Assembly: GCF_001509795.1 (NCBI RefSeq)
Contig: NZ_LLZN01000063.1
Location: forward strand, 66,199 to 130,198
Source: Streptomyces sp. NRRL WC-3605
Lineage (GTDB): Bacteria > Actinomycetota > Actinomycetes > Streptomycetales > Streptomycetaceae
Direction of reading: 5' to 3'
DNA length: 64,000 nucleotides
A program made the position numbers and the translations under genes. The notes under the pieces were generated by a model that ran no database searches, was not told the DNA's origin, and was given only the letters and a program-made list of their open reading frames with translations. Each line of letters starts with the position of its first letter. Position 1 is the first letter of the stretch. Positions 5,537 through 63,915 of the stretch are shown here, one piece after another.

Positions 5537-5564
5537 CGGACGCGGCGGTGCCACACTGGAGAGC

Positions 5565-5843: not shown

Positions 5844-6041
5844 GGTCGCCGGCCCCCTGTGCCAGGGCGCGTCCGCCGGAATCTTCCCGGCACTCGACCA
5901 CCTTTGGCCATGAATCGCCGCCCAGCCATCTATCCGCGTAGACGAAGAGCCTCCACACTGAAGCCGCACTCGCACGAGCACGACCGCCGTGCGCCGTACG
6001 GCGGTACTTCCGGCATGCCCCCACCCGGGCAACGCCCTTGT

Positions 6042-7223: not shown

Positions 7224-7230
7224 CCCCTAG

Positions 7231-7256
7231 GGCCCGGCCCCCTCGGGGGCCGGGCC
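7231..7256 (+). terminator. GC-rich hairpin after the secreted protein gene
   Basis: An 11-bp perfect stem (GGCCCGGCCCC paired with GGGGCCGGGCC) with a CTCG-type loop begins seven bases after the stop codon at 7223. The 280 bp between it and the next start codon hold only a CGTCGTCGCC-type low-complexity run (about 7290-7330) and no gene that I can support. Confidence 0.7.
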
Positions 7257-7537
7257 ACCCGACCGCGGCCGCCTGCCGCCCGGTCCCGGTACGTCGTCGC
7301 CGTCCTCGTCGTCGCCGTCCTCGTCGGCACCGGCCTGGCGGAGGACCGGCTCGCGGCCGATCCCGGGCAGGCTGTAGCCGCCGGATCGCCCCGGCCTCCC
7401 CGCACGGGCGCCGGCAGCGCCCCGCCGACGTTTCGCGGGTAGCCGCGCGGTTACCCAGGAAACGTCCCTCGCGCCCCTGTGCACGGTCCGGGCGCACGGG
7501 ACGGTCGTCCGACAGCGGGATCGAAACGGAGCGCGGC

Positions 7538-10182: not shown

Positions 10183-11508
10183 TCATGACTGTCGATGGAC
10201 ACGGCTGGCTGAAGCCCGCCGAGTGTCGGCACCGGAGCTGACGTTCCGCAGGGTCTGCTCAGGACCGTGCCAGTCCAGACACATCACCGTGGCGTCATCC
10301 GCAAGCCGGCCCCCGGCCGCGTCCCGGACCGCGGACGTCAGTGTACCCGCCGCCTCCCGCGGATGCAGATCGCGGGTGCGTTCCAGCAGGGCCGGCAGGT
10401 CGACCGCCTCTCCGTGGCGTTCGAGCATGCCGTCGGTCACCATGAGCAAGCGGTCCCCCGGGCGTAGATCGAGGTCCTGGACCCGGTAGGGGTGGGGCAC
10501 GGGCACTGCCAGCCCGAAGGGATGGTCGACCTCGCATGTGATCGTTCGCGCGGCCCCCTCGCGCATGCGCAGCGGCCAGGGGTGGCCGGCGTTGACGAGC
10601 TGGGCGCGACCGGTGTGGAGGTTGATACGCAGCAGCTGCCCGGTGGCGTGACCGTGACCCTGGTCGGCCAGGGCCCGGTCCGCCTGGTGAGCCTGCTCGG
10701 CCAGGTCGGCTCCTGCGCGGCGGGCCCCGCGCAGGGCGCCCACCAGCACCGTGGCGGCCAGAGCGGAGGCGATGTCGTGGCCCATGGGGTCGGTCACCGA
10801 CACGTGCAGGGTGTCGCGTTCGAGCGCGTAGTCGAAGGTGTCGCCGCTGAGGTCCTCCGAGGGCTCCAAGCTCCCGCACAGCGTGAACTGCGCGGCCTCG
10901 CACGACAACGACTGGGGCAGCAGCTGGTACTGGATCTCGGCTGCCAACGTGGGAGGCCGGGAGCGCTTGCCCCAGGTGTAGAGGTCGGTGAAGCGTCCGT
11001 TGGCGATCACGACGTAGGCCAGGATGTGGGCGGACTCCCCGACCTCGTCGAGAACGTCGGCCCCGGGATGGGCGGGCAGGAGCAGTTCCAGCAGTCCGAT
11101 CGCGTCCCCCCGGTTGGTGACCGGAACGATCACTCGGTGTCCTTCTCCAGTCGCTTCCTGATACAACCGCTGGGTGCGGATCACCTGCTCGTAGGCAGTG
11201 CCGTGCAGGGCGATCCGTTCCGCTTCCCGTCCGCCCCCCACACCCACGGCGGCCGTCAGCCGCGCCACCGCCTTCCCCGTCAGGTCGACGATGAGGAACG
11301 AGACTCTCGCGGCCGAGAAGCGCCGCCTCAGGTCCTCGGCGACCACCGCGACGGCGTCCACCGGCGCCGCTCTCTCCGCCGCCGTAAGGAGCCGGGTAAG
11401 TCCGCTCTGCCCACCGCTCACGACCACGGTCCCTTCCACCGGCCCCTCTACCAGCTTCGGGACCCGCGCGGCAGGCGTCAATCCGTGCGCCGCCGGCACG
11501 GTGGTCAC
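10183..11508 (-). CDS. SpoIIE/PP2C-type serine/threonine phosphatase
   Basis: 441 residues. The N-terminal half (about 45-190) is GAF-like. From about residue 200 it is a SpoIIE-type PP2C domain: [18 protein letters not shown], then [12 protein letters not shown] (usual metal-site motif GGDwyD, here D/T variant), [43 protein letters not shown] and [12 protein letters not shown]. These enzymes dephosphorylate STAS anti-anti-sigma factors. The usual family end is just after LDWHG; here 20 further residues run into the enolase/GH15 deletion scar, so the tail is probably new sequence. STAS substrates may include the product at 20307-20696. Confidence 0.85.
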
Positions 11509-48756: not shown

Positions 48757-49215
48757 TCAGCGGGTCGGCGCCTCTGCGGGGAGCGGATTCTCGCCGCCCC
48801 TTTGCTGCGGGGCGAACTCCCCAGCCGTTCCGCACGCGGCGAGGTCTGTGACAAGGACTCCAACGGCCGCCCGCCAGAGTCGCACCTGGGCGCGGGGCGG
48901 GCCGAGTTCGTCGTGGTGGTACTTGCAAGCGGCACTGAGCCGGTTCCAGAGGGTGTGGGCACGGCGGGCTCGGGCGGGGCCGGCGTAGTGGTGCAGGCAG
49001 AGCAGTTTCGCGCGCATGCTGCGGAGTCCGCCGAGTCCGGCTTCCTCAGCCATGAGGGCCGCGTCGACGGCTGCTTCCAAGGCGATGCGCAGGGCGTAGG
49101 CCGCGCCGCGGTCGCGGCCGGCCGAGGTCAGCGGGCCGTCGCCGTTCGGGCTGCCGGTGAGGAGGTCGTCAGCGGCAGCGAGGAGCACGGCGGCCGCAGT
49201 GGGAGTGGCGGGCAT
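48757..49215 (-). CDS. small all-helical partner of the zinc-hook ATPase
   Basis: 152 residues; ATG 49215 shares a base with the ATPase stop (TGATG), so translation is coupled. It is predicted to be nearly all helix: LRIALEAAVDAALMAEEAGL, LCLHHYAGPARARRAHTLWN, RLSAACKYHHDELGPPRAQV and LWRAAVGVLVTDL. The LWxxLSxAxxxHxxEL-P pattern recurs in Streptomyces proteins next to large ATPases and recalls HEPN-type helical bundles, but the RX4-6H ribonuclease motif is not clear (HH/YHH clusters only). I call it unknown, probably a toxin-, sensor- or adaptor-like partner of the ATPase. Confidence 0.65.
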   Translation of the reverse strand: MPATPTAAAVLLAAADDLLTGSPNGDGPLTSAGRDRGAAYALRIALEAAVDAALMAEEAGLGGLRSMRAKLLCLHHYAGPARARRAHTLWNRLSAACKYHHDELGPPRAQVRLWRAAVGVLVTDLAACGTAGEFAPQQRGGENPLPAEAPTR

Positions 49216-51659
49216 CAGGCGTTCGCCTCCGGCTTGCGGATCTTGTTGGCGAGGTCCTCGACCTTCCTCACGAAGGCGACCGGATCCGGCGGGAGGAATC
49301 CGCCGGGGTGGGCGCCCTGCTGGCACTGGTGGATCAGCACCGTGCTCTCACGGCCGTACAAGGAGCGGAGACTGTCCTTGACCTTCTCGTCGGGATGGAC
49401 GGAGCCGTCGTCGAAGAGGGCGAACGACGCGAGGGGGAGGAGCCGTTCGGTCATGTCGATGGCGGCCTGGAGGTCTTCGGCGGGGAGGCCGGTGCGGTTG
49501 CGGCGGAGCCAGGCCGCCTCGACGATCGCCGTCGCCAGCGCCTCGCGGCACAGGGACGGCAGGACGTGACGCAGGGCCGTCTCGGAGCAGTTCTCGGTCC
49601 TGGCGAGGGCCATGGCGTTGTCGACGGCCTCCTTGACCGGGTCGGTGTCGCAGGTGACGTGCACCTTGGACTTCTCGCCGCGCTCCACCTTGAGCACGGT
49701 CACCGGCAGGCCCTGGCTGCGGAAGGCGTGCGGGAGGCGGGTGTCGTGGGTGAAGACGACGACCTGCCGGTCGCGGCCGAGTTCGTCGAGCACCTGGGCC
49801 AGGCCGTCGACCTTCGCCGGGTCCATGGACTGCACGGGGTCGTCGATGACGACGAAGCCGAAGGGGCTGTCGGCCGTCGCGGCGCGGGGCAGGAACAGGG
49901 AGAGGGCGAGCGAGTGCAGTTCGCCCTGGCTCATGACGCCCAGGGCAGAGGCCTCGGTGTCGTCGACGGTGACGTCCATGACCAGCTTGCGGACGGTGGC
50001 CTTCTCGCTGCCGTGCAGGCCGACGCGGGTCAGGTCGACGCTGCTCTGCTGGCGCAGCTTCTCCCAGATCCGCTGCGTGTGACCGGCGAAGGCGTCGACA
50101 CGCAGGTCGCGGACCTCGGTCGTGAGCTTCTTGATCCAGTTGAGGGCGGCGTTGACCTCCGTCCGGCGGGGCCCTGCGGCCTCGGCCTCCCGGGAGAGGT
50201 TCGTCCACTCGGCGAGCAGGCCGACGACGGCGTGCCAGCGTTCGTCCATGGCCGCCAGTTCCTCGCGCGCCGCTCCGGCCACGATCGCGCACGCGTCCGT
50301 CAGCGTCACCGCCGCCTTCAGGGCGCTCTCGGCGAGTACGGCGGGGTCGGTGATCCACCGGCAGTCGCCCCAGGCCTGCCACGGTTCGGCGAGCGCGGCC
50401 GGGATCTCCGGGGGCGGGTTGATCAGGTCGTGCAGTTCGCGCGTCGCGGTCCGCAGACGGGCTTCGGCCTCGCGTACGGCCTCGGCCTCGCGCAGGAGCG
50501 CGGCGATCTGCGCCTCGGCGCGCGCGGCCCACTCCCGGTCCAGTACCTGTTCCGTGCCGCAGACCGGGCAGGCCGTGTCGTCGGCGTGGCGGTCGCTGTG
50601 CCGGAGGGCGGCCTGGAGCAGTGCGGCCCTGCTGTGGGCGTCGGCGGCGGCGGTGCCCTTCAGGTCGTCGACGTCGGCGACGGCGTTCCGCAGCGCGTCG
50701 ACGGCGGCGCCGACCCGGTCCAGGTCAGGACTCTCGGTCTCGGCGGCGGCCTCCAGACGGGCCTCCCGCAGCCGCCCCTCGTCGGCCGTGGGCGCGCCGG
50801 CGACCAGCGCGTCGAGCACGGCGTGATCGGGTCCGTCCTTCTCCTCCATCGCCACCAGCGCCTTGAGCGCCCGGTCGTCGTGCCCGACCTCCTCCAGGGC
50901 CGCGTGCAGGTGCGGCTTCCTGTCCTTCGCAGCGTTGACGGCGGCGTCGAGTTCCTTGTTCGCGGCCGTCAGCCGTCGCGCGGCGGCGTTGAGGTCGTCG
51001 AGGCCGAGGATCGCGGCGATGTTGTCGTACATCTCGGACGGCTTGCCGTTGATCAGGTTGTCCAGGTCGGCGTAGGAGAGGAAGGGCCGGTGGGCGCGGG
51101 TCGCCCGCTCCCAGCCGGTCTCCTCCAGCGGCACGGTGCCGTGTCCCGGCCGCCTGAGCACGGCCTCGGAGTCGGTGAAGGCGTCGCCGGTCCAGGTGCG
51201 GGTGAGGGTGCTCGGCGACGGGTCGCCCTCGACGGTCAGCCTGGCCTCGACGACGGTCCGCTCGCCCTGGTGCAGGTTGCGCCAGCGGACGGCATGACTC
51301 GGGTGCTGGCCGGCGCAGTGGGCGTTGGTGCCGGTGAACAGGGTCTCGATCGCCTCGGCGATGCTCGACTTGCCGGAGCCGTTGCGTCCCACGACGAGGG
51401 TCACGCCGGGCTTGGGCTTCAGCTTGAGCAGTGCCTTGGAGCCGACGCCGCGGAAGCCGGTGACCGCGATGTTCCCCAAGTAGACGGGGCCCGCGGAGGG
51501 CCGGGGTCCGCCTTCGGCGTCCTCGGGGTGGCCGAGCGCCCCGCGGACGAGGGCCTTCACCGGAGCGGACAGCTTGCGGTCGCCGGCCAGGCGGGCCTCG
51601 ACGAGTCCAGGCAAGGGCAGTGCTCTGTCGGGGGTCGGATCGGTCGTCGCGTCGTCCAT
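49215..51659 (-). CDS. Rad50/RloC-like ABC ATPase with zinc-hook motif
   Basis: 814 residues from ATG 51659 (GGGAG ribosome site). Walker A GRNGSGKS (91-98), a coiled-coil-rich middle with a zinc-hook CPVC (364-367), ABC signature MSQGE (576-580), Walker B GFVVIDDP (601-608), D-loop SMDPAK and H-loop FTHD. The 175-residue tail is helical. The domain order is that of Rad50/SbcC-like AAA_13/AAA_23 proteins, which include RloC/PrrC anticodon nucleases encoded near type I RM loci; I cannot identify the ACNase triad in the tail. It is coupled to a small helical protein gene. A palindrome 131 bp upstream is shared with the RM operon. Confidence 0.85.
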   Translation of the reverse strand: MDDATTDPTPDRALPLPGLVEARLAGDRKLSAPVKALVRGALGHPEDAEGGPRPSAGPVYLGNIAVTGFRGVGSKALLKLKPKPGVTLVVGRNGSGKSSIAEAIETLFTGTNAHCAGQHPSHAVRWRNLHQGERTVVEARLTVEGDPSPSTLTRTWTGDAFTDSEAVLRRPGHGTVPLEETGWERATRAHRPFLSYADLDNLINGKPSEMYDNIAAILGLDDLNAAARRLTAANKELDAAVNAAKDRKPHLHAALEEVGHDDRALKALVAMEEKDGPDHAVLDALVAGAPTADEGRLREARLEAAAETESPDLDRVGAAVDALRNAVADVDDLKGTAAADAHSRAALLQAALRHSDRHADDTACPVCGTEQVLDREWAARAEAQIAALLREAEAVREAEARLRTATRELHDLINPPPEIPAALAEPWQAWGDCRWITDPAVLAESALKAAVTLTDACAIVAGAAREELAAMDERWHAVVGLLAEWTNLSREAEAAGPRRTEVNAALNWIKKLTTEVRDLRVDAFAGHTQRIWEKLRQQSSVDLTRVGLHGSEKATVRKLVMDVTVDDTEASALGVMSQGELHSLALSLFLPRAATADSPFGFVVIDDPVQSMDPAKVDGLAQVLDELGRDRQVVVFTHDTRLPHAFRSQGLPVTVLKVERGEKSKVHVTCDTDPVKEAVDNAMALARTENCSETALRHVLPSLCREALATAIVEAAWLRRNRTGLPAEDLQAAIDMTERLLPLASFALFDDGSVHPDEKVKDSLRSLYGRESTVLIHQCQQGAHPGGFLPPDPVAFVRKVEDLANKIRKPEANA

Positions 51660-51790
51660 GGTGTCTCCCGTGATGCCCGTCGAAGAGGGAAAGGGGCGAG
51701 CACCGACAGGCACCGGAGCGGCCGAACCGTTGGGCACCTGTCGACGGACGGGACCGTAGGCGTAGGTGGGATGCGTGCGGTTTCTCCTTT

Positions 51791-51810
51791 CTGATAACGA
51801 CGGTTATCAG
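51791..51810. promoter_or_regulatory. palindromic operator candidate upstream of the zinc-hook ATPase operon
   Basis: CTGATAAC-GACG-GTTATCAG, a perfect 8-bp inverted repeat with 4-bp spacer, lies 131 bp before the ATPase start. It is 16/20 identical to the palindrome at 63135-63154, all differences being at positions 8-11. AT-rich in a GC-rich context. Confidence 0.65.
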
Positions 51811-51875
51811 GTAAGTCGATGACAAGGGAGTGATCATTCGGGGCGAGGAGCGCGCCGGTTCGCCCGCCTCGGTGA

Positions 51876-52490
51876 TCAGTTGCTTTGCCTCCTCGCCTCA
51901 CCGACCCGTCTGGCCGACTCGGCGTCCGGCGTGGCCTGCTCGCGCAGATCGGGGTGGTAGCCGTTCCCCTCCCGCAAGGCGGTGCGTACCTGCTCGTACT
52001 CCGCCCAGACGGTCTTGCCCGGGCCGTCCGGGCGTGGGTGCCAGTCCCAGCGGGTCGCGAGTTGCGACACGAGGAGCAGTCCGCGGCCGGTCTCCTCGAC
52101 GCCGGCTGCACCTTCCGGGATGGCCGGGCGGCGCGGGTGGCGTTCGGTGCGGGTGTCGGTGACCTCGACGCGCACGGTGCGGCCGTCGGGGGTCGCGTGG
52201 AGACGGAGGTGGAAGTCCCGGCCGGGGACGTGGCCGTGGCTCACGGCGTTCGCGGTCAACTCGGCGACGATCAGCACGATCGCGTCATGCGGGTCGGTGC
52301 CGTACGGGATGCCCCACGCATCCAGGCGGACGGCCGCGAGGCGGCGGGCGAGACGGGCTCCGCGCGGTGTGGAGGTGAAGCGCATCTCGAAGGCGGGGCC
52401 CGGTGGCGAGGACGCCTTCAAAGGGGCACTGGGGGTGGTTTGTTGGGTGGTGTCAGTGGGATTGAGGGGTTTCGTCGTCACGCCTCTCAC
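51876..52490 (-). CDS. HATPase anti-sigma-type regulator (WhiJ-cluster type)
   Basis: 204 residues. A GHKL ATPase with AIVLIVAELTANAVSHGHVP (N box), VRVEVTDTRTERHP (G1-like, lacking the usual G-x-G run), GRGLLLVSQLATRWDWHPRP (G2) and GKTVWAEYE. It diverges from an XRE-DUF5753 gene followed by a DUF397 gene. This trio is the WhiJ-like cluster found many times in Streptomyces genomes, which act on development and stress responses. Starts GTG 52490 or 52481. Confidence 0.85.
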   Translation of the reverse strand: MRGVTTKPLNPTDTTQQTTPSAPLKASSPPGPAFEMRFTSTPRGARLARRLAAVRLDAWGIPYGTDPHDAIVLIVAELTANAVSHGHVPGRDFHLRLHATPDGRTVRVEVTDTRTERHPRRPAIPEGAAGVEETGRGLLLVSQLATRWDWHPRPDGPGKTVWAEYEQVRTALREGNGYHPDLREQATPDAESARRVGEARRQSN

Positions 52491-52631
52491 GGTCCCGTCG
52501 GTCGCGTAGCGTGACCAGCGGTGACGCAGCGACAGGGGCCGGCTGTACCCGTGTTGTACGCGCCTGTCGGCGCTGCGCGCCGTGACGGCGTCCCTTGCGG
52601 GGGCGTTGAGCGAGAGAAGGCGGTGGTGGAC

Positions 52632-53573
52632 ATGGCGGAGCGCACGGGTGCGGAGACCGGGGCCGAGGCGGTTACCGGAGAGCGTGGGAACGGCGACGGC
52701 GCGGGGGCGACGGTCGTGAGTCTCGGGGACGGCTGGGAGAACGACGGCGGGGCCGGGCGCCGGCCGGAGGACGAGGCCGGGCGGGGAATCGTGGTCGCGT
52801 TCGGGCAGACCATGAAGACGCTGAGGGTGCGGGAAGGGTTGGAGCGCGAGGAGTTCGGGCGGCGGCTCGGGTACTCGGCGTCCACCATCGCGTCGTTCGA
52901 GCAGGGGCGGAGGATTCCGACACCGAGGACGATCGAACTGGCGGATGAGGTGCTGGGGGCGGGCGGGTTGCTGTGCCTGTGGAAGGAGCAGGTGGAGCGG
53001 GCGCAGTATCCGGTGTTCTTTCAGGGGATGGCGGTGCTGGAGAAGGAGTGCCTTGAGCTACTCATGTACGACACTCATGTCGTCAACGGGCTGCTCCAGA
53101 CCGAGGAGTACATGAGGGCGCTGCTCGCGATGCGGCGTCCGCCCCTGGACTCGGAAACGGTCGAGCAGCGGGTGACAGCTCGGCTGGCCCGACAGGACAT
53201 CTTCGACCGCAAGTCGGCCCCGCTGCTGAGCTTCGTAGTGAACGAGGCGGTTCTGCGTCATCGGTACGGTGGCACGGACGTGCTGCGGGGACAGTTGGAG
53301 TTCATTCTCCTCGCCGGTCAGAAGCAGAACGTCGAGATCCAGGTCATGCCGACCGAGTGTGAGGAGAACGCAGGCGTGAACGGCCCGTTCACGGTTGTCA
53401 CCAGGAAGGACGGCAAGAAGTTCGTCTACACGGAGACGCACACGACCAGCTCCCTTGAGACCGACCCGGAACAGACGGCTCTCGCGGCTGCACGCTATGG
53501 GATTATCCGATCACAGGCTCTCAGTCCGAGAGAGTCAACGAAGTTCATCGAAGGGTTGCTGGGAGCGCTATGA
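52632..53573 (+). CDS. XRE-family HTH regulator with DUF5753 (WhiJ-like)
   Basis: 313 residues from ATG 52632; an upstream start at 52521 adds 37 codons of low-complexity sequence. The HTH is at about residues 60-115 (FGQTMKTLRVREGLEREEFG, then RRLGYSASTIASFEQGRRIP); DUF5753 follows (LLQTEEYMRALLAMRRPPLD ... VEIQVMPTECEENAG). The ATGA overlap with a DUF397 gene is typical. WhiJ-like proteins are thought to be antagonised by their small DUF397 partner. Confidence 0.9.
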   Translation: MAERTGAETGAEAVTGERGNGDGAGATVVSLGDGWENDGGAGRRPEDEAGRGIVVAFGQTMKTLRVREGLEREEFGRRLGYSASTIASFEQGRRIPTPRTIELADEVLGAGGLLCLWKEQVERAQYPVFFQGMAVLEKECLELLMYDTHVVNGLLQTEEYMRALLAMRRPPLDSETVEQRVTARLARQDIFDRKSAPLLSFVVNEAVLRHRYGGTDVLRGQLEFILLAGQKQNVEIQVMPTECEENAGVNGPFTVVTRKDGKKFVYTETHTTSSLETDPEQTALAAARYGIIRSQALSPRESTKFIEGLLGAL

Positions 53574-53785
53574 ACAACGCTGAGTCCTCGACCATCGCCT
53601 CGGACCTCGCCTGGTTCAAGAGCAGCTACAGCGGAACCGAAGGCGGCCAGTGTGTAGAGGTCGCGACTGCTGCGGCAGTTGTGCACGTCCGTGACTCGAA
53701 GGTTGACTCCGGTCCCCTGCTCACCGTCTCCCGTGAGGCATGGGCAGGCCTTATCGAGTTGACTTCGTCGGAACGGCGCGTCTGA
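53570..53785 (+). CDS. DUF397 small acidic protein
   Basis: 71 residues: LAWFKSSYSGTEGGQCVEVA, then VHVRDSKVDSGPLLTVSREA and W. This is the standard DUF397 sequence, the partner of WhiJ-type XRE-DUF5753 proteins. ATG 53570 is inside the upstream gene's stop (4-bp overlap). A strong hairpin 13 bp after the stop ends the transcript. Confidence 0.93.
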   Translation: MNNAESSTIASDLAWFKSSYSGTEGGQCVEVATAAAVVHVRDSKVDSGPLLTVSREAWAGLIELTSSERRV

Positions 53786-53797
53786 CGTTGGACCGCT

Positions 53798-53837
53798 GCT
53801 GACGCATCCGGGCTCACGATGGCCCGTATGCGTCAGC
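53798..53837. terminator. bidirectional terminator hairpin
   Basis: Arms GCTGACGCATCCGGGC (53798-53813) and GCCCGTATGCGTCAGC (53822-53837) pair at 15 of 16 positions with an 8-base loop, between the convergent DUF397 and EcsC-like genes. Confidence 0.85.
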
Positions 53838-53849
53838 GGAGGGAATTGC

Positions 53850-54683
53850 CTACTTTGAGGCAGCGTCGTCCCCGTCGGACCGTTCGACGTAGTCCGTGGC
53901 GGAGGGCTCACGCTCCAGCACGACCTCGACAGACTCGACCCGCACCGTGGGCTTCGTCATGTCCAGCTCGGCGAGGTGGTTCTTCAGCTTCTTCGCCATG
54001 GGTCGGAAGGTCGCGAACGTGAGCCCACCGGAAACGACAGCCCCGACGACGGGGACCGCCTTGGAGACGGTCCTTGCGAAGGTCTGCTTCGTCATCTCCT
54101 TACCGAGGTGACCGGCGATCTTCTTCACGAGGGGGTAGATGAACCCCTTCGTGAGCGCCTTCTGCGGCAGCTTCTTTGCGACCTCCTTCGACATCGCCTC
54201 CGCGGCCTTCGTGACAGCAGTAGTCGCCGAATGGGTACCGAACATCACGCCGACGAAGAGCGTGAGCACTCCCTCGGTCGCGTCGTCCATGTCGTCGCCG
54301 GAGAACAGGTCGGGCCAACTGTAGAGGTAGGCGAGCTTCTGCGAGATGCGCAGCATGTGCCCCATGTACTGCGCCAGGTCGGCAGGGACGGTGGCGGGAA
54401 GGAAGAGCAGGCCGGGCAGTCCGGCTGCCGCGGAAGCGGCGCTGACCTTGGCGGTCTCGTACTTGATGGAGTCGTTGGCCGCCTTCTCCAGGATGTCGAG
54501 GGGGATACCCGCCGCCGCCGGGGTCTCTTCGATCGCTTGCTTGATCTGCTCTTCGGAGCAGTGACGGGACAGCGCCTTCCGAAGGTACGTCTCCCTGTTG
54601 ATACGCACACCCGGAAGTTTCGCCGCAGCGACCAGCACCGTGGAGAAATGCGACCCCGGGTCTTCCATCTCTTTGCCCGCCAT
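53850..54683 (-). CDS. EcsC-like protein, last gene of the type I RM operon
   Basis: 277 residues. LPGLLFLPATVPADLAQYMG followed by HMLRISQKLAYLYSWPDLFS matches the helical core of EcsC family proteins, as does the late hydrophobic glycine-rich VPVVGAVVSGGLTFATFRPM. The tail is acidic and charged. EcsC proteins are poorly understood, membrane-associated, and sometimes encoded with secretion or stress genes. The gene begins 75 bp after the hsdR stop on the same strand without a visible terminator, so it is probably co-transcribed with hsdMSR. A role as RM accessory or membrane effector is speculative. Confidence 0.65.
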   Translation of the reverse strand: MAGKEMEDPGSHFSTVLVAAAKLPGVRINRETYLRKALSRHCSEEQIKQAIEETPAAAGIPLDILEKAANDSIKYETAKVSAASAAAGLPGLLFLPATVPADLAQYMGHMLRISQKLAYLYSWPDLFSGDDMDDATEGVLTLFVGVMFGTHSATTAVTKAAEAMSKEVAKKLPQKALTKGFIYPLVKKIAGHLGKEMTKQTFARTVSKAVPVVGAVVSGGLTFATFRPMAKKLKNHLAELDMTKPTVRVESVEVVLEREPSATDYVERSDGDDAASK

Positions 54684-54758
54684 GAAGTAAACCTGACCTT
54701 CCGGGAGGAGCTACCTCCCTGTATGTCTCCAGAATTTCGGTGAGTCGGTGAGGACAGC

Positions 54759-57700
54759 TCAGCTTTCGGTCTCTCCCTTGGTGGACCACTCGTTGGCGAA
54801 GTGCTCCATCTGGCGGAGAACCAAGTCGATGGCCTCCTTCTGCTGGTCCGGCGGGTAGTTGTTGCGGGCCAGGAGGCGCTTGATGGTGCTGCGCAGGCGG
54901 GCACGGACGGACTCGCGGGCGATCCAGTCGGGCTTGAGCTGGCGGCGGACCTCGGCGACCAGTTCGCGGGCGATGCCGGCCAGGACCTCGTCACCCATGA
55001 GCGAGCGGGCCGTACCGTGGTCGGCAACGGCGTCGTAGAAGGCGAGTTCACGCCAGTTGAGAGGCGGGTCGAACTTCTCGCCCCGCTTGGCGTCGGCCAT
55101 GACGTCCTTGGCCATCTCGACCAGTTTGGCGATGAGTTCGGCGCTGGTGTACTGCTGGCGCATGTAACGCACCATCAGGTCCTGGAGACGCTCGGAGAAC
55201 GTCGTCTGCCGGACGATGTTGTGCCGGGTGACCTCGCGCATCTTCCGCTCGACGAGCCGCCGCAGTGCCTCGGCCGCCAGGTGCGGGGTCTGGCTCTGCT
55301 GGAGCTGGGCGACGAGCGCGTCGGTGAGGTGGGTCAGGTCGGCGGTCTCCAGTCCGGCCTCGGCGAACAGGTCGGTCACTCCACCCGTCTCCACGACGGA
55401 CGACGTGAGCTGGGAGAGGTACAGCTCGACGTCGCGGGCCACCGGAAGGCCCCGTGCCTCGCGCTCCATGGCGTCCAGCTTGGCCATGTAGGCGCGGACC
55501 TCGACGAAGAACTGGATGTGCCTCTTCCAGGCCGGCGTGTCCGCGAACCGCTCCCCCACCTCCTTCGAGCTGCCCGCCAGCGCCCAGAAGCGCTCAAGAC
55601 GGTAGGCGTGGTCACGGAAGCGTCGGCCCAGGGTCTGGCGCGGGTCGTCGAGCTGGTCGGGGTCGTTGCCCTTGGTGCGGGGGTCGCGCAGGTGGTTGGC
55701 CGTCTTCAGGGCCGCGTCGACGAAGGCACGGGGGCCGGGGCGGTCGAGCAGGGGTTCCCACGCGAAGCCGCGCAGGATGCCGGTGAGGATGTCGTACTCG
55801 TTGCGCAGCTCGTCCAGTGCGCGCTCGACGTCCTGGCCGAGGGTGCGGTCGCGCTGGTCGGCCTCGGTGTACTCGGCGATGGCCCGCTGGAGGTTCTCCG
55901 TCAGCGGGGCGTAGCCGACGAGGAGGCCGTCCTCCTTTCCGCGGAAGCGGCGGTTGACGCGGGCCAGGGCCTGCATCAGGTTGGCGCCCTTGAGCGGCCG
56001 GTCCAGGTACATGGTGTGGATCGGCGGGGCGTCGAAGCCGGTCAGCAGCATGTTGTTGACGATGAGCAGTTCCAGCTCGTCGTCGGGGTCCTTGGCCCGG
56101 TTGATGACGGCCTTACGGCGGCTGTCGGTCAGCGCGTGGGCGAGCAGGGCGTCCAAGTCCTTGCGGGAGTTGGACGAGAAGACGATCTTCATCGTGCCCC
56201 TCTCGAACTCGTCGCTGTGCCACTCGGGACGCAGCTCGCGCAGGGCGTCGTAGACGCGGACGCAGATCTCGCGGGTCGCGCACACCACCATCGCCTTGCC
56301 GGGCGCCCCGCCCGACTCGGAGGCGCCGACGAACGGCTTCATCCGCTCCCGGCGCGCCTCCCAGTGCTCCACCAGGTCGGCCGCGAGGTCGCGTATGCGG
56401 GCCGGCGCGCCGTACATGGCGTTCATCGTCGCCACGGCCTGTTCGACGCGGCGGCGCTCGGTGTCGTCGAGGCCCTCGGTGATCCGGTCGGCCTCTTCGT
56501 CGATGGTGGTCGGATCGACGTCGTGGTCCAGGACGAGCTGGATCACGCGGCTCTCGTGGTAGACCTTCACGGTCGCGCCGTCGTCGGCGGCCCGCTTGAG
56601 GTCGTAGACGTCGATGTAGTCGCCGAACACCTCGCGGGTGTTGCGGTCGGCCTCCGAGATCGGGGTACCGGTGAAGGCGAGCAGCGTGGCGTGCGGGAGC
56701 GCGTCGCGCAGATGGCGGGCGAGGCCGTTGAGGTCGTCGTAGTGGCTGCGGTGGGCCTCGTCGACGATCACGACGATGTTCCGGCGGTCGGAGAGCATCG
56801 GGTGGTCGGTGCCCGACTCCCGCTCCTCCTTGGTCTTGCCGAACTTCTGGAGCGTGGTGAAGAGGATCCCTCCCGTCCTCTTCGCCGCAAGCTCCTCCCG
56901 GAGTTCGGCGCGGGTGACGACCTGCCTCGGCGTCTCCGGGAGGATCTCGCTCTCCTGGAAGGTGCTGTAGAGCTGGTCATCGAGGTCCGTGCGGTCGGTG
57001 ACGACCACCACGGTGGGGTTCAGCAGGGCCGGGTCCCGCATCACCATGGTGGTGGTGAGGACCATCTCCTCCGACTTGCCGGAACCCTGGGTGTGCCAGA
57101 CGACGCCAGCCTTGCCGTCGCTCGCCGACGCCGTGCGGACGGCGTCGGCGGCGCGGGTGACCGCGTGGTACTGGTGCGGCTTCGCGATCCGCTTCATCCG
57201 CTTCGACGGGACGAAGTTGATGAAGGACTGGATCAGTTCGAGAAAGCGGGACTGGGTGAACAGGCCGTGCAATGCCAGGTTCTGTCCCGACTCCGAGAAA
57301 CCGTCGGCGGTCAGCGGGTCGACGCGGGCGCCGAACTCGTCCGTGTTCCATGGGGCGAAGTGCTCGTACGGGGTGAACGGCGTGCCGTACTTGGCGGTGA
57401 TGCCGTCGGAGAGCAGAACGACCGCGTTGTAGCGGAAGGCGGTCGGGAACTCCTGGACGTACCGGGCGACTTGGGCGTGGGCAGTCTGGAGGGTCGCGTC
57501 CTCGTCGCCGGCGCGCTTCAGCTCGATGGCGGCGAGGGGCAGGCCGTTGACGTACAGGATGACGTCGAAGCGGCGGTTCCTGTCGCCGTCGATCACCGTG
57601 ACCTGACTGAGGGCGCGATAGGTGTTCGCGTCCGGGTCGTCCAGGTCGAGGAGACGGATGGTGGGGTTGTGCTCGGCACCGTGGGAGTCGGTGTAGGTGA

Positions 57701-58034
57701 CCGAACGTATGCCGGTGGTGAGGTGGCGGTGGGCGGCCCGGTTCTCCTCGTAGGTGTCCTGAGAGCCGGGAGTGGCGGCGGTCGCCACGGCATCGTGGAC
57801 GGCGTCCGGGGGCAGCTCCGGGTTCAGGCGCTCGATGGCCTCCTGGAGGTCCGGGTAGAGGATGAGGTCGTCCCAGGACTTCCGGTGGTCGGAACCGGGC
57901 GCGAACGCGTTACCGGAGGCCGGCTGCCAGGCCAACTCGGCCAGCTCGTCGAGCGCGAGCAGCTCCCAGTCGGCTTCGGTGGGGCGGCGGTGGCTTCTGT
58001 CGTCGGGCTCGTTTCCGTCGTGGGGCGTCGTCAT
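54759..58034 (-). CDS. hsdR: type I restriction enzyme R subunit
   Basis: 1091 residues. Endonuclease domain: Asp157 and the ELK triad (171-173) in FDVILYVNGLPLAAIELKRA. SF2 translocase: HTQGSGKS (Walker A, 314-321), DEAH (425-428), FTGTP (454-458, motif III), and QALARVNRRFRGK (motif VI, about 695). A C-terminal helical domain contacts the MTase. All catalytic residues are present, so the subunit should be active. ATGA overlap with hsdS (58031-58034). It translocates DNA and cuts at unmodified sites. Confidence 0.95.
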   Translation of the reverse strand: MTTPHDGNEPDDRSHRRPTEADWELLALDELAELAWQPASGNAFAPGSDHRKSWDDLILYPDLQEAIERLNPELPPDAVHDAVATAATPGSQDTYEENRAAHRHLTTGIRSVTYTDSHGAEHNPTIRLLDLDDPDANTYRALSQVTVIDGDRNRRFDVILYVNGLPLAAIELKRAGDEDATLQTAHAQVARYVQEFPTAFRYNAVVLLSDGITAKYGTPFTPYEHFAPWNTDEFGARVDPLTADGFSESGQNLALHGLFTQSRFLELIQSFINFVPSKRMKRIAKPHQYHAVTRAADAVRTASASDGKAGVVWHTQGSGKSEEMVLTTTMVMRDPALLNPTVVVVTDRTDLDDQLYSTFQESEILPETPRQVVTRAELREELAAKRTGGILFTTLQKFGKTKEERESGTDHPMLSDRRNIVVIVDEAHRSHYDDLNGLARHLRDALPHATLLAFTGTPISEADRNTREVFGDYIDVYDLKRAADDGATVKVYHESRVIQLVLDHDVDPTTIDEEADRITEGLDDTERRRVEQAVATMNAMYGAPARIRDLAADLVEHWEARRERMKPFVGASESGGAPGKAMVVCATREICVRVYDALRELRPEWHSDEFERGTMKIVFSSNSRKDLDALLAHALTDSRRKAVINRAKDPDDELELLIVNNMLLTGFDAPPIHTMYLDRPLKGANLMQALARVNRRFRGKEDGLLVGYAPLTENLQRAIAEYTEADQRDRTLGQDVERALDELRNEYDILTGILRGFAWEPLLDRPGPRAFVDAALKTANHLRDPRTKGNDPDQLDDPRQTLGRRFRDHAYRLERFWALAGSSKEVGERFADTPAWKRHIQFFVEVRAYMAKLDAMEREARGLPVARDVELYLSQLTSSVVETGGVTDLFAEAGLETADLTHLTDALVAQLQQSQTPHLAAEALRRLVERKMREVTRHNIVRQTTFSERLQDLMVRYMRQQYTSAELIAKLVEMAKDVMADAKRGEKFDPPLNWRELAFYDAVADHGTARSLMGDEVLAGIARELVAEVRRQLKPDWIARESVRARLRSTIKRLLARNNYPPDQQKEAIDLVLRQMEHFANEWSTKGETES

Positions 58035-59236
58035 GTGGCGTCCTCGACAACCTTCTCGGCGTTCTTGACGCGGAGGCGGCCGGAGATGAGTTGGGGGAGG
58101 AGCGTGGCGCGGAGGGTGGTGAGGGTGCGGGACTCCGCTTGGAGTGACTTCATGTGAGCAAAGGCTGCGGAGGCCTCTCGGCCGAAAGCGGCCAGCGCGT
58201 CCGCGTCAGGGCGGTTCACCTCGTAGTTCGCGGCATCTGCCGCGCTGACCCGCTGCCGCCCGGACGTGCCGGCCATATTGCGGATGGCGTGCGCACGGAA
58301 CCGGCTGTCCCGGGCCAGGAAATAGCTGAGTTCGCCGGGAACTCCGGGGAGCGAGCGCATAACGATGAATTCAGTGGAACCAAGCCCGATTTCGCCGTCT
58401 TCCATGAAGTCGACGTAGCCGGTCTTGCCATTTTCCAAGCAGGGGGTAATGCGGGCGAGGAGTGTGTCACCGTTCATGAACCTCGGGCCCGACTTCGGCG
58501 CCCTCCGTGTCCATGCTGGAATACTGGCCCGGTCGGTCTGCAATGCCGCCATGTCCACATAGACGGGCTCATCCGCAGACGGCTTCGCGACCTTTGGATT
58601 GAAAGTCAAGAGGTCCGTGACCGGCACAGCTCTTTCAGCACTCGGCTCATCGGCCAGTCCCAGCTCCGCGTAACGGCACTGCAGCAACTTCTCGTAGGTG
58701 GTCGAGGTGCGTTCGTTGACCGCAATCTTGTCATCCAGTGCGCCGAGGACTGCTCCGATCCGCCGCTGCTCCGCGAGTTCCGGCACTGCCGGGATACGCA
58801 GGTCACGCACCTGGGCAACGCGTAGGTGGGCCACAGTCGACCCGGAGGCCTGGGAGTGCAGCATATCCTGAACCGTGGGGCTAAGGAGGAAATAATGCAG
58901 GAATCGCGAGTCCGTGCGCTGCTCTTTGGGGCGCAGAAGCATCGTCCGCTGCCCGAGGCAGATGCGCATCCCCTCTTCTATACGGCCGACTCGCCCCACT
59001 GGAGCCTCGCGGGTCAGAACGATGTCACCGGCTTGTGGAACCGCGCGCGCTGTCCAGGTGTCGAAGGTCTCACGACTGACCGGCTTGGCGTCCGACAGCC
59101 GAATACGGCCGTCTATGATGTTTGGCGTACCGATGGAGAAACCTGCGATCTCCTCGCCGGGAAAAGCCTCCGGAGGTGTCCGGTTCTTGCAGTCCACGAC
59201 CAGTTCACAGAGGTCGGCAAGAGTCAGCTGCGTCAT
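58031..59236 (-). CDS. hsdS: type I RM specificity subunit
   Basis: 401 residues with two target-recognition domains (about 5-150 and 200-340) separated by a conserved helical spacer ([20 protein letters not shown]) and a C-terminal helix ([16 protein letters not shown]). TRD1 carries [18 protein letters not shown] and GQRTMLLRP. The DNA of both TRDs is clearly less GC-rich than the flanking hsdR and hsdM genes, as expected when TRDs are exchanged horizontally. The two TRDs each read half of a bipartite target; the target cannot be predicted here. Confidence 0.93.
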
Positions 59237-60852
59237 CGGACGTTCTCCAACTGCTCACGGACCGTCTTCTCCAGTTCGGCCGACTTGTCGAAGAGCGCGT
59301 GAAGCTCCTCCGTCAGCTTGCTGATCCTCTCCGCAATCGCCTCTGCGTCCTCTTCCTCCGCCTCGACAGCCCCCACATACCGCCCCGGCGTAAGTACGTA
59401 CCCGTGCTCCCGTACCTTCTCCAGGTCGGCCGAGTAGCAGAAGCCCGGCACGTCCTCATACGTCAGCCCGACCTCACGCGCCGACGCCGTGCCGCGCCAC
59501 GCGTGGTAAGTGTCGGCAATCTTCCCGAGGTCAGCCTCCGTGAAGACGCGCTCTGTCCGGTCCACCATTTCACCCATCCCTCGGGCGTCGATGAACAGGA
59601 TCTCGCCACGCCGGTCGTCCAACCGCCGGGCGCCCTGAGGCGTCTTATCCTTTGACAGGAACCACAGGCACGCCGGGATCTGCGTCGTGCGGAAGAGCTG
59701 CGAGGGCAGCGCCACCATGCAAGCGACCAAATCGGCCTCGATCAGCGCCTGCCTGATCTCGCCCTCGCCGCTGGACTGGGAGCTCATCGAGCCGTTGGCC
59801 AAGACGATGCCGGCCGTGCCCTTCTCCCCCAGCTTGGAGATCATGTGCTGGAGCCACGCATAGTTGGCGTTGTTCTTCGGCGGGACCCCGTACTTCCAGC
59901 GCGGGTCGGTCTCATCCCTCGCCCAGTCCTTGATGTTGAAGGGCGGGTTGGCCATGACGAAGTCGGCCTTGAGGTCCGGGTGCTTGTCGTCGGCGAAGGT
60001 GTCGCCCCAGCGCGCGGCGAGGTTGCCGTCAATGCCGTGGATGGCGAGGTTCATCTTGGCCAGGCGCCAGGTGCGCTCGTTCAGCTCCTGGCCGTAGACC
60101 GCGATGTCGGCCTTGTGGCCCCGGCCCCGGTGCGCCTGGATGAACTTGCTGGCCTGCACGAACATGCCGCCCGACCCACACGCCGGGTCGTACACCCGCC
60201 CCTCGTACGGCTCCAGGATTTCCACGATGAGCCGGACGACGGAGCTCGGCGTGTAGAACTCCCCGCCCCGCTTCCCCTCCGCCCGCGCGAAGTTGCCGAG
60301 GAAGTACTCGTACACCTCGCCCAGCAGGTCCTGCGCCGGCTTGTCCCCGCTCCCCCCGAAGCGGGCGTCGCTGATGAGGTCGACGAGTTCACCCAGGCGC
60401 TTCTGGTCGACGCGGTCCTGGTTGAAAATCTTCGGGAGGACACCCGTCAGGGAGGCGTTCTCCCGCATGATCGCGTCCATCGCCTCGTCCAGGAGCTTGC
60501 CCACACCCTGCGCCTTGGCGTGCGCGGCGATCCAGGACCAGCGGGCGGTCTCCGGGACCCAGAAGACGTGGGCGCCGGTGTACTCGTCGCGGTCCTCCAG
60601 GAAGTCGCCGATCTGCTCCTCGGAGATGCCGTCCTCGGCGAGTTCCTTGGCCAGCTCGGTGCGGCGCTCCTCGAAGGCGTCCGAGACGTACTTCAGGAAG
60701 ATCAGGCCGAGGACGAACTCCTTGTACTGGGCGGCGTCGATGGAGCCGCGGAGCTTGTCGGCCGCCTTCCAGAGGATGTCCTGGATCTCCTTGGCGGTGG
60801 AGGCGCTGAACAGCTCCGCCTGGTCGGCGGGCTTCTTCTGACGTGGAGGCAT
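59233..60852 (-). CDS. hsdM: type I RM N6-adenine methyltransferase subunit
   Basis: 539 residues. HsdM N-terminal helical domain ([20 protein letters not shown]), then the MTase with [22 protein letters not shown]-binding DPACGSGG (222-229) and catalytic NPPF (302-305). Both motifs are intact. The C-terminal helix ([20 protein letters not shown]) docks HsdS. ATGA overlap with hsdS. The upstream gene ends 17 bp before. Confidence 0.95.
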
Positions 60853-60869
60853 CGGGTGGGCCGTCTCCT

Positions 60870-63011
60870 TCAGTGGGTGTCGGTGTGCGGAAGTGGCTGG
60901 ATGGTGAGCGTGCCGTCGGTCATGCCGGCCGCCATCACGCGGGTCAGGTCGTCGAGCGCGGCCGTCTGCTCTCGCAGTAACGCCGCGCGGCTCTCGATCT
61001 CGGCGAGGACGGCCTCGTACAGGTCGGCCTCGGTGCTGCTCAGGTCGGGGACGACCAGGTCCTCGATACGGCGGGAGGCGCGTACCGCACCACTCGTGCG
61101 GGCGTGCTCCCCCGCCGCCGCCCGCAGCAGCGCCGCCAGCACCCGGGGCCGTACCGGCGGGTCCGCGTCGGGATGCACCCGCAGGATGCGGGCCGGTGCC
61201 GCGACCAGCGAGACGCCCTCCACGTCGACGTACACGCCGAAGTGCGGGTGGGCGGTGACCACAAGGTCCCCGGGCTCGGTGAACTGGGCGTGCTCGTAGG
61301 CCGTGAGGAGGATGCCACGGTCCATGCGGCGGCCGCCGATGCGGGCGGTGCCGAGGATCTCCTCGGGGGTGAGGACCGTGTAGTGGCCCTCGGGGGTGAG
61401 GTGTTCGGGGGCGAAGCGGTGGCCGGGGCGGCGGCGCAGGCGGCGGGCGCGCAGGAGGCGGCCGACGGACGTACGACGGACCGGCTGGCTCTCCGGGCGC
61501 AACTCCGCCTGAGCGCGCAGCCGAAGGTCGCCGGCCCGCGCACGCTCGTGGAGTTCACTCAGGCGCCGTTCCAGGTCCGCGATGACCGCCGGGCGTTCCA
61601 CCACCGTCCGCACGTGCCGGGACGCGAGCGTCCGGTGCTGCGGAGTGAACGCGGCACCGGGGCTGCCGTCCAGGTCGGTGCCGTGGACGATGGCGGCGTG
61701 GCGCGGTTCGTGACGTCGGTCGGGGGTCCACCCCGAGGCACGCCAGATGGCGATGTCCTCGGCGAGGGCGTCGAGGACGGGCTCGGTGAGCGGCCGGGCG
61801 GAGTAGTCCGCGAGGAGAACGAGACCCGTGCGCTGCTCCTCGGGGACGCGGGCGAGGATCCAGACCGCCGTGCGGTAGCCGGGGCGGTAGGCGTAGGCGC
61901 CGTCGGGGAGGCTGATCGCCGCCTTGAGTAAACCGGGCTCCAGGAACGAGCGGCGCAGCCGGTCGGCGTCGCCGTGCCGGGCGAGGGGGCCGATGAGGAC
62001 GTCGGCGGGGCCGAGGACGACGGCGGTGGCGCCGGTGTCGAGGTAGTCGGTGAGGGCGGCAACCTGGTCCAGGACCGCCTTGGCGTCGCGGGTCTCGGCG
62101 GCCTCGTACGGGAGGGCGCAGACCATGAGGTTGGGGTAGCCCCACTCGTCGGCGGTCAGCTCCTCGCCCTCGGCGACGTCGAGCCGGAACTCGTACACCC
62201 CGCGCACCAGCATCCGACGGCGGATCATGCGTACGCGGACCGGGTCGGGGTCGGCGGCGAGGTAGACGTGGCGGGAGTCCTCGGCGGCGCGGTCGTGGAG
62301 GGCGGCCGGGAGGTCACCGGAGCGGGCGTGCGGGACGGCGATCACCGCGCCCTCGTCGAGGGTGTCGATGCCGGAGAGGGCGGCGAGGGCGCGGACCACG
62401 GCCGGGGTGGGCCCGTCGGCGGCCGGGTCGTGGGAGCCGAGGCGGGGGCGGGCCTGGAGGATCCAGTCGAAGGCCTCGGCGGGGTTGTAGGCGGCGTCGA
62501 TCAGCTCGTCGGCGAGGTGGGCGAGGGCCGGGCCGGTGCGGTCGGGGTCGGGCAGGGCCCGCAGTTCGGAGAGGAGGAAGCGGTCTTCCGGGTCGAGGTC
62601 GGCAGCGCTGTCCACGACGGCGTTCCAGGGCCGGCCGTCGGCGACGGGGGCGTCGAGCTGCTGGTGCAGGCAGACCAGGGAGGTCAGCGCGCCGAGCAGG
62701 ACGGACGCGGACAGGGTCGGGCTGCGCCAGGCGGCCAGGGTGTGCAGGGCGAGCTCGGCGCGGAGCCGGCGGGGGTCGGTGTTGCCGCGGCCGGTGGAGG
62801 CGAGCCAGTCGACGACCGCGCGGGCGTCGAACAGGGGACGTCCGTCCTCGTGGGCGACGGGAGCGGGGAAGTCCGGGTGGCGGCGGGCCCAGGTGGTGGG
62901 GACCGGGCGCTTGACCTGGGCGAGGGCGGCGATCTCGGCATATGTGATCCGCCAGGCCGGGGTTTCGGGCAGTATTGCGGCGGACGCCCCTGTGGTCGTG
63001 TGTGCCGTCAT
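60870..63011 (-). CDS. HTH plus degenerate N6-methylase plus TRD-like protein, first gene of the RM operon
   Basis: 713 residues. Residues 20-80 are a MerR/excisionase-like winged helix ([20 protein letters not shown] ... [13 protein letters not shown]). Residues about 200-480 follow an HsdM-like MTase outline but with the SAM loop replaced (VPHARSGDL at 226-234 where D-P-A-C-G-x-G would stand) and the catalytic NPPY replaced by CALPY (298-302). Residues 480-690 resemble an HsdS-like TRD with coiled coil ([20 protein letters not shown]). I infer a catalytically dead MTase paralogue that can bind DNA. It is the promoter-proximal gene of the RM operon, with the shared palindrome 123 bp upstream. 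Confidence 0.75.
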
Positions 63012-63134
63012 GGACGTGTCGCCCCCCTCTCCCCGGTCACCGAGGCCGGCTTTGTCGCCTCGCGGTCCTCCCCTCCTTCAGCGGGGCGGACGTCAGCAAT
63101 CTACATCGACCCCTGACTCCTGGAGGAAACTCGG

Positions 63135-63154
63135 CTGATAATACGGGTTATCAG
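63135..63154. promoter_or_regulatory. palindromic operator candidate upstream of the RM operon
   Basis: CTGATAAT-ACGG-GTTATCAG, an inverted repeat (7 of 8 bp) nearly identical to that at 51791-51810. It lies 123 bp before the start of the HTH/degenerate methylase gene and 81 bp before the start of the divergent gene at 63236. Confidence 0.65.
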
Positions 63155-63235
63155 TGATCTCGGCACCGATCCTTCGGTATGGCAGGCACCTTGTGACCAG
63201 CAAGCGCCACGACGCCGAACCGGAGGACCACCGCA

Positions 63236-63871
63236 ATGAGCTACCCGCCCTCGACACCGCCCAGCACCCCGCAGCCCTCCGGGTCCGGGAACGCGCCGAG
63301 CTGGGGCGCCGTACCGCCGATGCCGGTCACGACGGCCGGCCCCGGGCAGCCTCCGGCGGGCGTGCCGACGGGGCCGAAGGCATCGCGCCGCAAGGCCTGG
63401 CTCACCCACGGCGCGACCGCGCTCGTCGCCCTCTTGATCGGCGCGGGCATAGGCGACGACGGGGAAGCCGGCGGCACAGACGACGCCTCCGCACCCGCCC
63501 CTGCCGTCACTGTCACCAAGACAGCATCTGCCGAAGTCGGCGAGCCTAAGCCGGCCGTCACGGTCACCGAGAAGGTCACTGTGACTCCCAAGCCCCCCAA
63601 GCCGGCCAAGAAGGCGGGAGCCGCCACCACGGTAGAAGGCGACGGGCAGTACCTCGTCGGGGAGGACATGCAGGCAGGTACGTACAGGACCGCCGGCCCC
63701 GACAAGGGCAGCGTCATCGAGAACTGCTACTGGGCGCGCACCAAGAACGCCTCCGGGGAGTTCGAAGCGATCATCGCCAACGCGAACCTCCAGGGCCAGG
63801 GGCGGGTGACGGTCAACAAGGGCGAGTACTTCGAGACCAACGGCTGCCAGGAGTGGACCAAGGTCGGCTGA
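63236..63871 (+). CDS. single-pass membrane protein with C-terminal extracellular domain
   Basis: 211 residues. Cytoplasmic Pro/Ser/Gly-rich lead (SYPPSTPPSTPQPSGSGNAP), one transmembrane helix (GATALVALLIGAGIG, about 58-75), a Thr/Val/Lys/Pro stalk (VTVTEKVTVTPKPPKPAKKA), and a small beta domain (DGQYLVGEDMQAGTYRTAGP ... NCYWAR ... ANLQGQGRVTVNKGEYF). The domain recurs in Streptomyces exported proteins of unknown role; two cysteines could form a disulfide. It diverges from the RM operon and shares its intergenic palindrome. Confidence 0.8.
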   Translation: MSYPPSTPPSTPQPSGSGNAPSWGAVPPMPVTTAGPGQPPAGVPTGPKASRRKAWLTHGATALVALLIGAGIGDDGEAGGTDDASAPAPAVTVTKTASAEVGEPKPAVTVTEKVTVTPKPPKPAKKAGAATTVEGDGQYLVGEDMQAGTYRTAGPDKGSVIENCYWARTKNASGEFEAIIANANLQGQGRVTVNKGEYFETNGCQEWTKVG

Positions 63872-63915
63872 CGAGTTGCCGCAGACGCCGCCGCGCTCGT
63901 TGGGGGGGTGCCCCT

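Follow-up and report, generated by a model that had tools for sequence, protein, structure and literature searches.

A palindrome shared by a type I restriction-modification operon and a zinc-hook ATPase operon in Streptomyces as a candidate operator

A stretch of 64,000 nucleotides from Streptomyces sp. NRRL WC-3605 (called the window here, with positions counted from its first letter) contains two copies of a 20-bp palindrome, one located upstream of an operon for a zinc-hook ATPase and a small partner protein, the other upstream of a type I restriction-modification (RM) operon. Comparison with related loci strongly supports a co-regulation, predicted from sequence, of the RM and ATPase/partner modules by one dedicated site. 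An earlier note on this DNA had suggested such a common control, and the site indeed recurs at both operons in other species while only two exact copies are present here. We named the 713-aa protein encoded by the first gene of the RM operon HMTL. In the model that we favor, to which we give a probability of about 0.6, the palindrome would be the operator of the type I RM system, and HMTL would be its reader and the activator of three promoters.

The features that carry the argument are the following:
51791..51810, no strand: palindrome A, CTGATAACGACGGTTATCAG = CTGATAAC-GACG-GTTATCAG, upstream of the ATPase/partner operon; the same site precedes the ATPase genes of relatives
63135..63154, no strand: palindrome B, CTGATAATACGGGTTATCAG = CTGATAAT-ACGG-GTTATCAG, flanked by the HMTL-hsdMSR operon and the divergent gene at 63236
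49215..51659, minus strand: zinc-hook Rad50/SMC-like ATPase with the hook CPVC, ATG start; the frame is open from a GTG at 51737
48757..49215, minus strand: small partner protein without family match; its start codon overlaps the ATPase stop
60870..63011, minus strand: HMTL, 713 aa, with a predicted layout of N-terminal helix-turn-helix (HTH), HsdM-fold pseudo-methyltransferase and C-terminal half-HsdS-like part; candidate binder of the palindrome

The palindrome in the window and in related loci

Both palindromes were re-found where the earlier note had placed them. They share 16/20 bases with every difference in the center, and lie 131 bp upstream of the ATPase ATG (51659, palindrome A) and 123 bp upstream of the HMTL ATG (63011, palindrome B), which agrees with the distances given there. 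The earlier note had called a chance origin unlikely; here, the pattern CTGATAA-N6-TTATCAG with up to three mismatches has two matches in the window compared to 0.11 expected, and one of 100 shuffles reached two. In the whole source genome (7.58 Mb, 136 contigs) we detected two exact sites, A and B, and two sites with two mismatches, while the reversed pattern used as a control gave no match in these 7.58 Mb. The observation that no third full copy exists thus holds for the entire genome, and the many unrelated copies that were to speak against a dedicated site were not found. With the core TGATAAY-N4-RTTATCA the same two sites were obtained at no mismatch, none at one and seven at two, six of the latter being of the TGATCA or TGATGA type. 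To the left of about 46 kb, the analysis of the window consisted of pattern, composition and tRNA scans.

The exact motif is present in four of the 246 genomes of the genus sample: the source genome, G047 and G229, both with the same operon as the window, and G184. The palindrome of G184 (locus L085, G184:C27, 9466-9485, CTGATAATACGTATTATCAG) has no HMTL gene within the surrounding 20 kb and lies in the early part of an open frame that looks by eye, without a family search, like a LacI-family regulator; it may be the operator of that regulator itself.

In the genus sample, ten genomes besides the source genome have a strong full-length match to HMTL (E 3.3e-141 or better), and in the class sample of 394 genomes 11 matches were found at E <= 1e-30, including the source genome and two that are a partial piece; these searches scored few candidates per genome. 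A pattern scan of the species collection yielded at least 16 named loci from Streptomyces, Microbispora, Sphaerimonospora, Glycomyces, Nocardia and two metagenome-assembled genomes. All fetched loci with HMTL or a recognizable piece of it and with upstream sequence were combined into a set of 36 loci (L103 was dropped, its upstream sequence being missing). Gene calls in the fetched loci were made with a simple codon-position script, and the HMTL starts read off these maps are approximate. The palindrome is present within 300 bp upstream of HMTL in 36/36 loci: eight sites are exact, 19 have one mismatch, seven have two, one has three (L102) and one has four (L072). The remaining 725 kb of these loci contain ten sites with up to two mismatches, eight at ATPase genes and two at RmuC-like genes.

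Four previously unused plasmid relatives were examined afterwards (a fifth plasmid record is the locus L116 itself), and all four carry the site with no or one mismatch upstream of HMTL or of its remnant. Two of them are Arthrobacter plasmids, with an HMTL of 32-34% identity over the aligned part. The absence from orthologous operons that the earlier note had named as a refutation was therefore not observed in any of the 36 loci or the four plasmid loci. The loci L145, L146 and L147, which contain HMTL-hsdMSR, are on plasmids typed as conjugative, from Streptomyces anthocyanicus and Arthrobacter. Weaker matches (L020-L037, E 2.7e-21 and weaker) are HTH-methyltransferases of other kinds and were excluded from the HMTL counts; 17 of these 18 have no site at up to three mismatches, and the one site, in L032, has three mismatches and a different core. 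A scan for exact-arm palindromes upstream of HTH-methyltransferase and ATPase genes revealed no second common motif, but this test is weak and missed several known sites. Beside the HMTL remnant of L124 (G132, 10455-10474) both halves of the site are changed symmetrically (CTGATAGC-AGGT-GCTATCAG), as expected of a dimer site.

For ATPase matches down to E 2.3e-56, 20-kb neighborhoods were fetched for all but G094 and G098. A site with up to four mismatches is located within 700 bp upstream of the ATPase gene in 16 of the 19 loci that also hold HMTL, compared to 0/27 loci without HMTL (L077-L081, L086, L087 and L125-L144), where the best matches have five to seven mismatches. Three of the 16 sites are shared with HMTL, lying between back-to-back ATPase and HMTL genes (L068, L101 and L120), in support of one dedicated site for both modules.

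Promoter geometry and the candidate reader

On both sides of palindrome B and downstream of palindrome A, elements resembling a -10 box are located at nearly the same distance:
51753..51758, minus strand: TACGGT, the predicted -10 of the ATPase operon, at a distance of 32 nt from palindrome A
63098..63103, minus strand: TAGATT, the predicted -10 of the HMTL-hsdMSR operon, at a distance of 31 nt from palindrome B
63187..63192, plus strand: -10-like CACCTT of the SPR gene, 32 nt from palindrome B on its other side
63236..63871, plus strand: SPR, divergent from HMTL with palindrome B in between; it has one membrane helix (by eye), a stalk rich in VTVT and an Rv1352/Rv1906c domain with two cysteines

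Palindrome B also precedes the divergent SPR gene, whose start is 81 bp away on the right. Palindrome B is thus common to the HMTL promoter and a third promoter that was absent from the earlier note. SPR homologues face HMTL over the site in nine other loci (L069, L088-L094, L099), one faces the ATPase gene over the site in L075, and further homologues are found in L115, L116 and the plasmid locus L145.

The spacing was measured from the palindrome edge to the start of the element after removal of near-identical sequences. On the HMTL side, TANNNT is present in 21/21 deduplicated sites (26 before), at 31 (13), 32 (7) or 33 nt (1). On the ATPase side it is found in 11/13 (15 before), at 32 (9) or 31 nt (2), the exceptions being L068 with CACTCT at 32 nt and L101 without a -10. 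On the SPR side all ten deduplicated sites (11 before) have YANNNT, mostly CACCTT and never TANNNT, at 32 (9) or 31 nt (1). No other offset reached a count above two, and TANNNT occurs about once per 2200 positions on the plus strand of the window. In the plasmid HMTL loci the -10-like element is 30-32 nt from the palindrome. Among the 44 promoters with an element, the best match to TTGACA at spacings of 15-19 reaches at most 3/6 in 38, 4/6 in five and 5/6 in L100. With a transcription start 6-7 nt beyond the -10, the center of the palindrome would be at about -54. Activated promoters typically carry the site directly upstream of the -35 region and at a constant distance from a -10 that lacks a good -35. 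Because of this position, the near-constant spacing and the usually poor -35, we prefer activation over repression: the geometry of the predicted promoters suits an activator better. Of the earlier proposal that one repressor controls both modules, the dedicated common site is supported, whereas the term repressor is doubtful.

HMTL is, judged from sequence and structure models, most likely the reader of the palindrome. Of the two HTH proteins in the window, HMTL and an XRE-type protein, only HMTL accompanies the site throughout, with the exception of G195, and it is the best candidate of the two possible binders that had been named. The XRE protein (52521) was discarded as a general binder, since a homologue above 300 bits is present in only five of the 36 HMTL loci and a weaker one in four more. 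HsdS is an unlikely reader because it differs strongly between loci and the site does not.

HMTL has no match in Pfam. Its N-terminal HTH was judged from the helices of the model, the sequence pattern and a weak 34.7-bit match to the N-terminus of the PADLOC type I methyltransferase model. Comparison of the structure model identified the fold of an HsdM-type adenine methyltransferase; this relationship rests on the structure model because the profile comparison with the HsdM of the window gave a weak match (probability 4%), and a search of the HMTL profile against solved structures by sequence found none. The catalytic motif IV is lost in 24/24 palindrome-linked copies compared (12 of the 36 HMTL copies and L021, L022, L024 and L025 were left out of this comparison). 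HMTL may be a methylase look-alike turned gene switch, which would account for the position of an HsdM-like protein lacking its catalytic motif at the head of these operons.

In the model, the palindrome would serve as dedicated operator of the type I RM system. An HMTL dimer would bind TGATAAC-N4-GTTATCA, centered near -54, and in the bound state would activate its own operon HMTL-hsdM-hsdS-hsdR, the divergent SPR gene and the ATPase/partner operon 11 kb away, so that HMTL-hsdMSR, SPR and ATPase/partner would be expressed together; in other species, accessory genes would be swapped behind the same site. We infer that HMTL binds the site and activates, and that RM and ATPase cooperate against phage. 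This would provide a concrete candidate regulator and operator across distant actinobacteria.

Alternative readings and evidence against the model

Repression of the same promoters by the same regulator, probably HMTL, with release upon phage infection, is possible but somewhat unlikely. HMTL is the first gene of its operon, which suits autoregulation. Furthermore, RptR is described as a repressor of an E. coli type I RM/DarTG island that acts through sites overlapping the -10 and is proposed to be released on phage infection (PMC12255303), and the N-terminal region of the methyltransferase M.SsoII regulates transcription (PMC3978073). The site analyzed here, however, is clear of the predicted -35 and -10; it lies upstream, at near-constant spacing from a -10 that usually has no good -35. 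A regulator other than HMTL, encoded in the chromosome or in the locus, could read the site while HMTL works only with the RM enzyme. G195, which keeps the site beside the ATPase gene without HMTL, is in line with this reading. Yet the source genome has only two exact sites, and the same operator and operon are found in Streptomyces, Nocardia, Glycomyces, Microbispora and Arthrobacter plasmids; with so few sites and so wide a recurrence, a common chromosomal regulator without other target is unlikely, and we consider this reading improbable.

Truncated HsdS proteins can recognize interrupted palindromes, and HMTL might read the site through its C-terminal HsdS-like half, as a dimer of two half-specificity subunits. 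The identity of this part to the window protein is 41-76% in 21 of the 22 other aligned copies (27% in L122), and it ends in a long helix. The region is, however, modeled at low confidence (predicted local distance difference test, pLDDT, <50 at 530-579 and 587-607), and the HTH is 52-93% identical in these palindrome-linked copies; we give this reading little credence. A reading of the palindromes not as an operator but as the ends of a mobile 11-kb block, or as its recombination sites, is very improbable: in many HMTL loci there is just one site, and on both sides the distance to the -10-like element is kept. The observation in its favor comes from G195 (L075), which has one palindrome (7686-7705) and misses the 11.3 kb located between the two palindromes of the window, with the junction at the palindrome (blastn: 4749-7661 corresponds to 48837-51766, and 7732-8454 to 63181-63906). 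This junction is explained by recombination between two like promoters, and it represents either a deletion or the state before insertion.

Several observations weigh against HMTL as reader and activator of the common site. The foremost one, directed against HMTL as the sole reader, is G195: this genome, rated 99% complete, has the ATPase, the partner, SPR and a one-mismatch site, and lacks RM genes and an HMTL orthologue; another reader or decay are possible explanations. The ATPase site of L071 has five mismatches and fits no more closely than the best chance matches of the HMTL-less loci; it is symmetrical and has a -10 at 32 nt. The ATPase sites of L072 and L145 have four mismatches each, and on the ATPase side of the shared site in L101 there is no -10. 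The ATPase genes of L092 and L121 lack a site of their own; each is located downstream of another gene that faces HMTL over the site. Moreover, HTH and site share common descent, so that their co-occurrence is not an independent sign of binding, the C-terminal HsdS-like part is a possible reader instead of the HTH, and a large protein at -54 would be able to repress, too.

A further extension of the model, which we regard as tentative and unlikely, is that a duplicated methyltransferase/specificity subunit became an RM sensor and transcription factor: HMTL could be part of the RM complex, or a competitor for HsdS or S-adenosylmethionine, and would pass to the operator once phage anti-restriction proteins block the RM enzyme. 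If true, HMTL would switch on pluggable back-up effectors (ATPase/partner, DUF6119, RmuC-like, GajA-like) in PrrC style at the level of transcription.

Accessory genes, known systems and further genes of the window

The genes found behind the site vary. DUF6119/TIGR04141 genes face HMTL over the site in nine loci (L082-L084, L095-L098, L117 and L124), the family assignment being based on a profile for L084 and on tblastn for the others; in L082 and L097 an RNase H-like gene or fragment precedes the gene. On this side, all nine loci have YANNNT at a distance of 31-33 nt. The open-licence literature on DUF6119/TIGR04141 returned only unrelated plant work, and the placement over the site is a functional lead for this family. 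RmuC-like genes with an N-terminal membrane helix (by eye) have a site of their own in L099 (7175-8845) and L102 (8058-9728), an RmuC-like gene follows SPR in L094, and a GajA-like ATPase follows SPR in L115. These varied neighbors at the same site suggest that the operator marks a core, HMTL-hsdMSR, together with exchangeable accessory genes. Genes behind the palindrome, 31-33 nt and a -10 probably belong to the system, which provides a way to find accessory defense genes. The divergent pair facing HMTL in L070, L071, L073 and L074 (507 aa and 890 aa, the latter with a weak ZacB match in L070) and the DndB-like gene facing HMTL in L118 were not counted as controlled because their side of the site has no -10-like element at the fixed distance. 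Nor was the JetA-like gene of L072, which is about 1.1 kb away and behind another gene.

Controllers are well known for type II RM systems, and M.EcoRII is a methyltransferase with an N-terminal regulatory region. The C proteins are RM-encoded DNA-binding regulators acting upstream of their own RM promoter, and the position of the site upstream of HMTL, its predicted binder, fits this arrangement. As a rule, C proteins are separate small XRE-type regulators, whereas HMTL, at 713 aa, is a pseudo-HsdM encoded in a type I operon, and its site would also serve accessory operons. With fusions of the M.SsoII type HMTL has in common an N-terminal DNA-binding region, here the HTH, on a DNA methyltransferase fold inside an RM locus. 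These fusions, however, are type II cytosine-C5 enzymes, while HMTL has the type I adenine HsdM fold with motif IV lost and is followed by an intact HsdM. RptR of enteropathogenic E. coli resembles HMTL as first gene of a type I RM island with a conserved palindromic site; it differs in being a 79-aa repressor at 6-bp TAGCTA repeats over the -10, in contrast to 713 aa and a 20-bp palindrome upstream of the promoter core (PMC12255303). For type I RM systems, one C-protein case in Mycoplasma is named and information is called scarce (PMC12707154). A published account of the operator or of HMTL was not found among the papers listed for the open-licence literature, subscription papers being outside this coverage. 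A controller encoded by an RM system is thus known in kind; its make and the wider regulon would be new here.

The heads of the ATPase resemble Rad50, SMC and Lamassu proteins, the hook CP[VAT]C is kept in 24/24 sequences compared, and the C-terminal domain is all-helical in the structure model. RloC, a tRNA-cleaving zinc-hook ATPase with the C-terminal catalytic triad Arg-x3-Glu-x36-52-His, is distantly homologous to the RM-linked PrrC and is itself only rarely RM-linked (PMC2610378). Functionally, it is the closest parallel. The ATPase of the window is likewise an ABC ATPase with a zinc-hook CxxC, and its family is linked to a type I RM locus. Membership in RloC was rejected: the triad pattern occurs in three of 24 ATPase sequences, in two of them at one alignment column, and is not conserved. 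The ATPase, though not an RloC, may have a similar mode of action. Related heads with a coiled coil are also found in Lamassu LmuB, MADS MAD3 and Rad50/SMC ATPases (E 4.7e-21 for the LmuB-like score and 3.6e-19 for the PADLOC mad3 model). Lamassu was discarded, since the partner has no match among the PADLOC families, LmuA included, and the gene set differs, and MADS was discarded with MAD2 and MAD5 below the curated cut-offs (54 bits against 720 and 32.9 bits against 400). A HEPN-like R-x4-6-H motif of the window ATPase was dismissed as its position is not conserved in the family. In L091 (5197-7589) the ATPase match is in two pieces, possibly due to a frameshift. Related ATPase/partner pairs are located in L077-L081 near another type I-like RM set, whose first protein is an HTH-HsdM that has kept its motifs, and the palindrome is absent there.

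The type I RM set of the window is complete, with HsdM, HsdS and HsdR containing their domains. These and the neighboring genes are:
59233..60852, minus strand: HsdM, type I methyltransferase with intact DPACGSG and NPPF motifs
58031..59236, minus strand: HsdS specificity subunit, variable between loci
54759..58034, minus strand: HsdR, type I restriction subunit
53850..54683, minus strand: EcsC-like protein behind hsdR, PADLOC candidate PDC-S30 (E 3e-111)
52521..53573, plus strand: XRE/DUF5753 regulator, with homologues above 300 bits in the window, L071 and L088-L090

Among the 36 HMTL loci, an EcsC-like gene beside hsdR is found only in the window, L088 and L090; in the plasmid locus L146 it is behind hsdR on the other strand. 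A close relative, G159 (L076, 9993-14536), has two deletions compared to the window, one removing the ATPase start and the palindrome and the other extending from hsdR through most of SPR, and has kept the XRE and EcsC-like genes.

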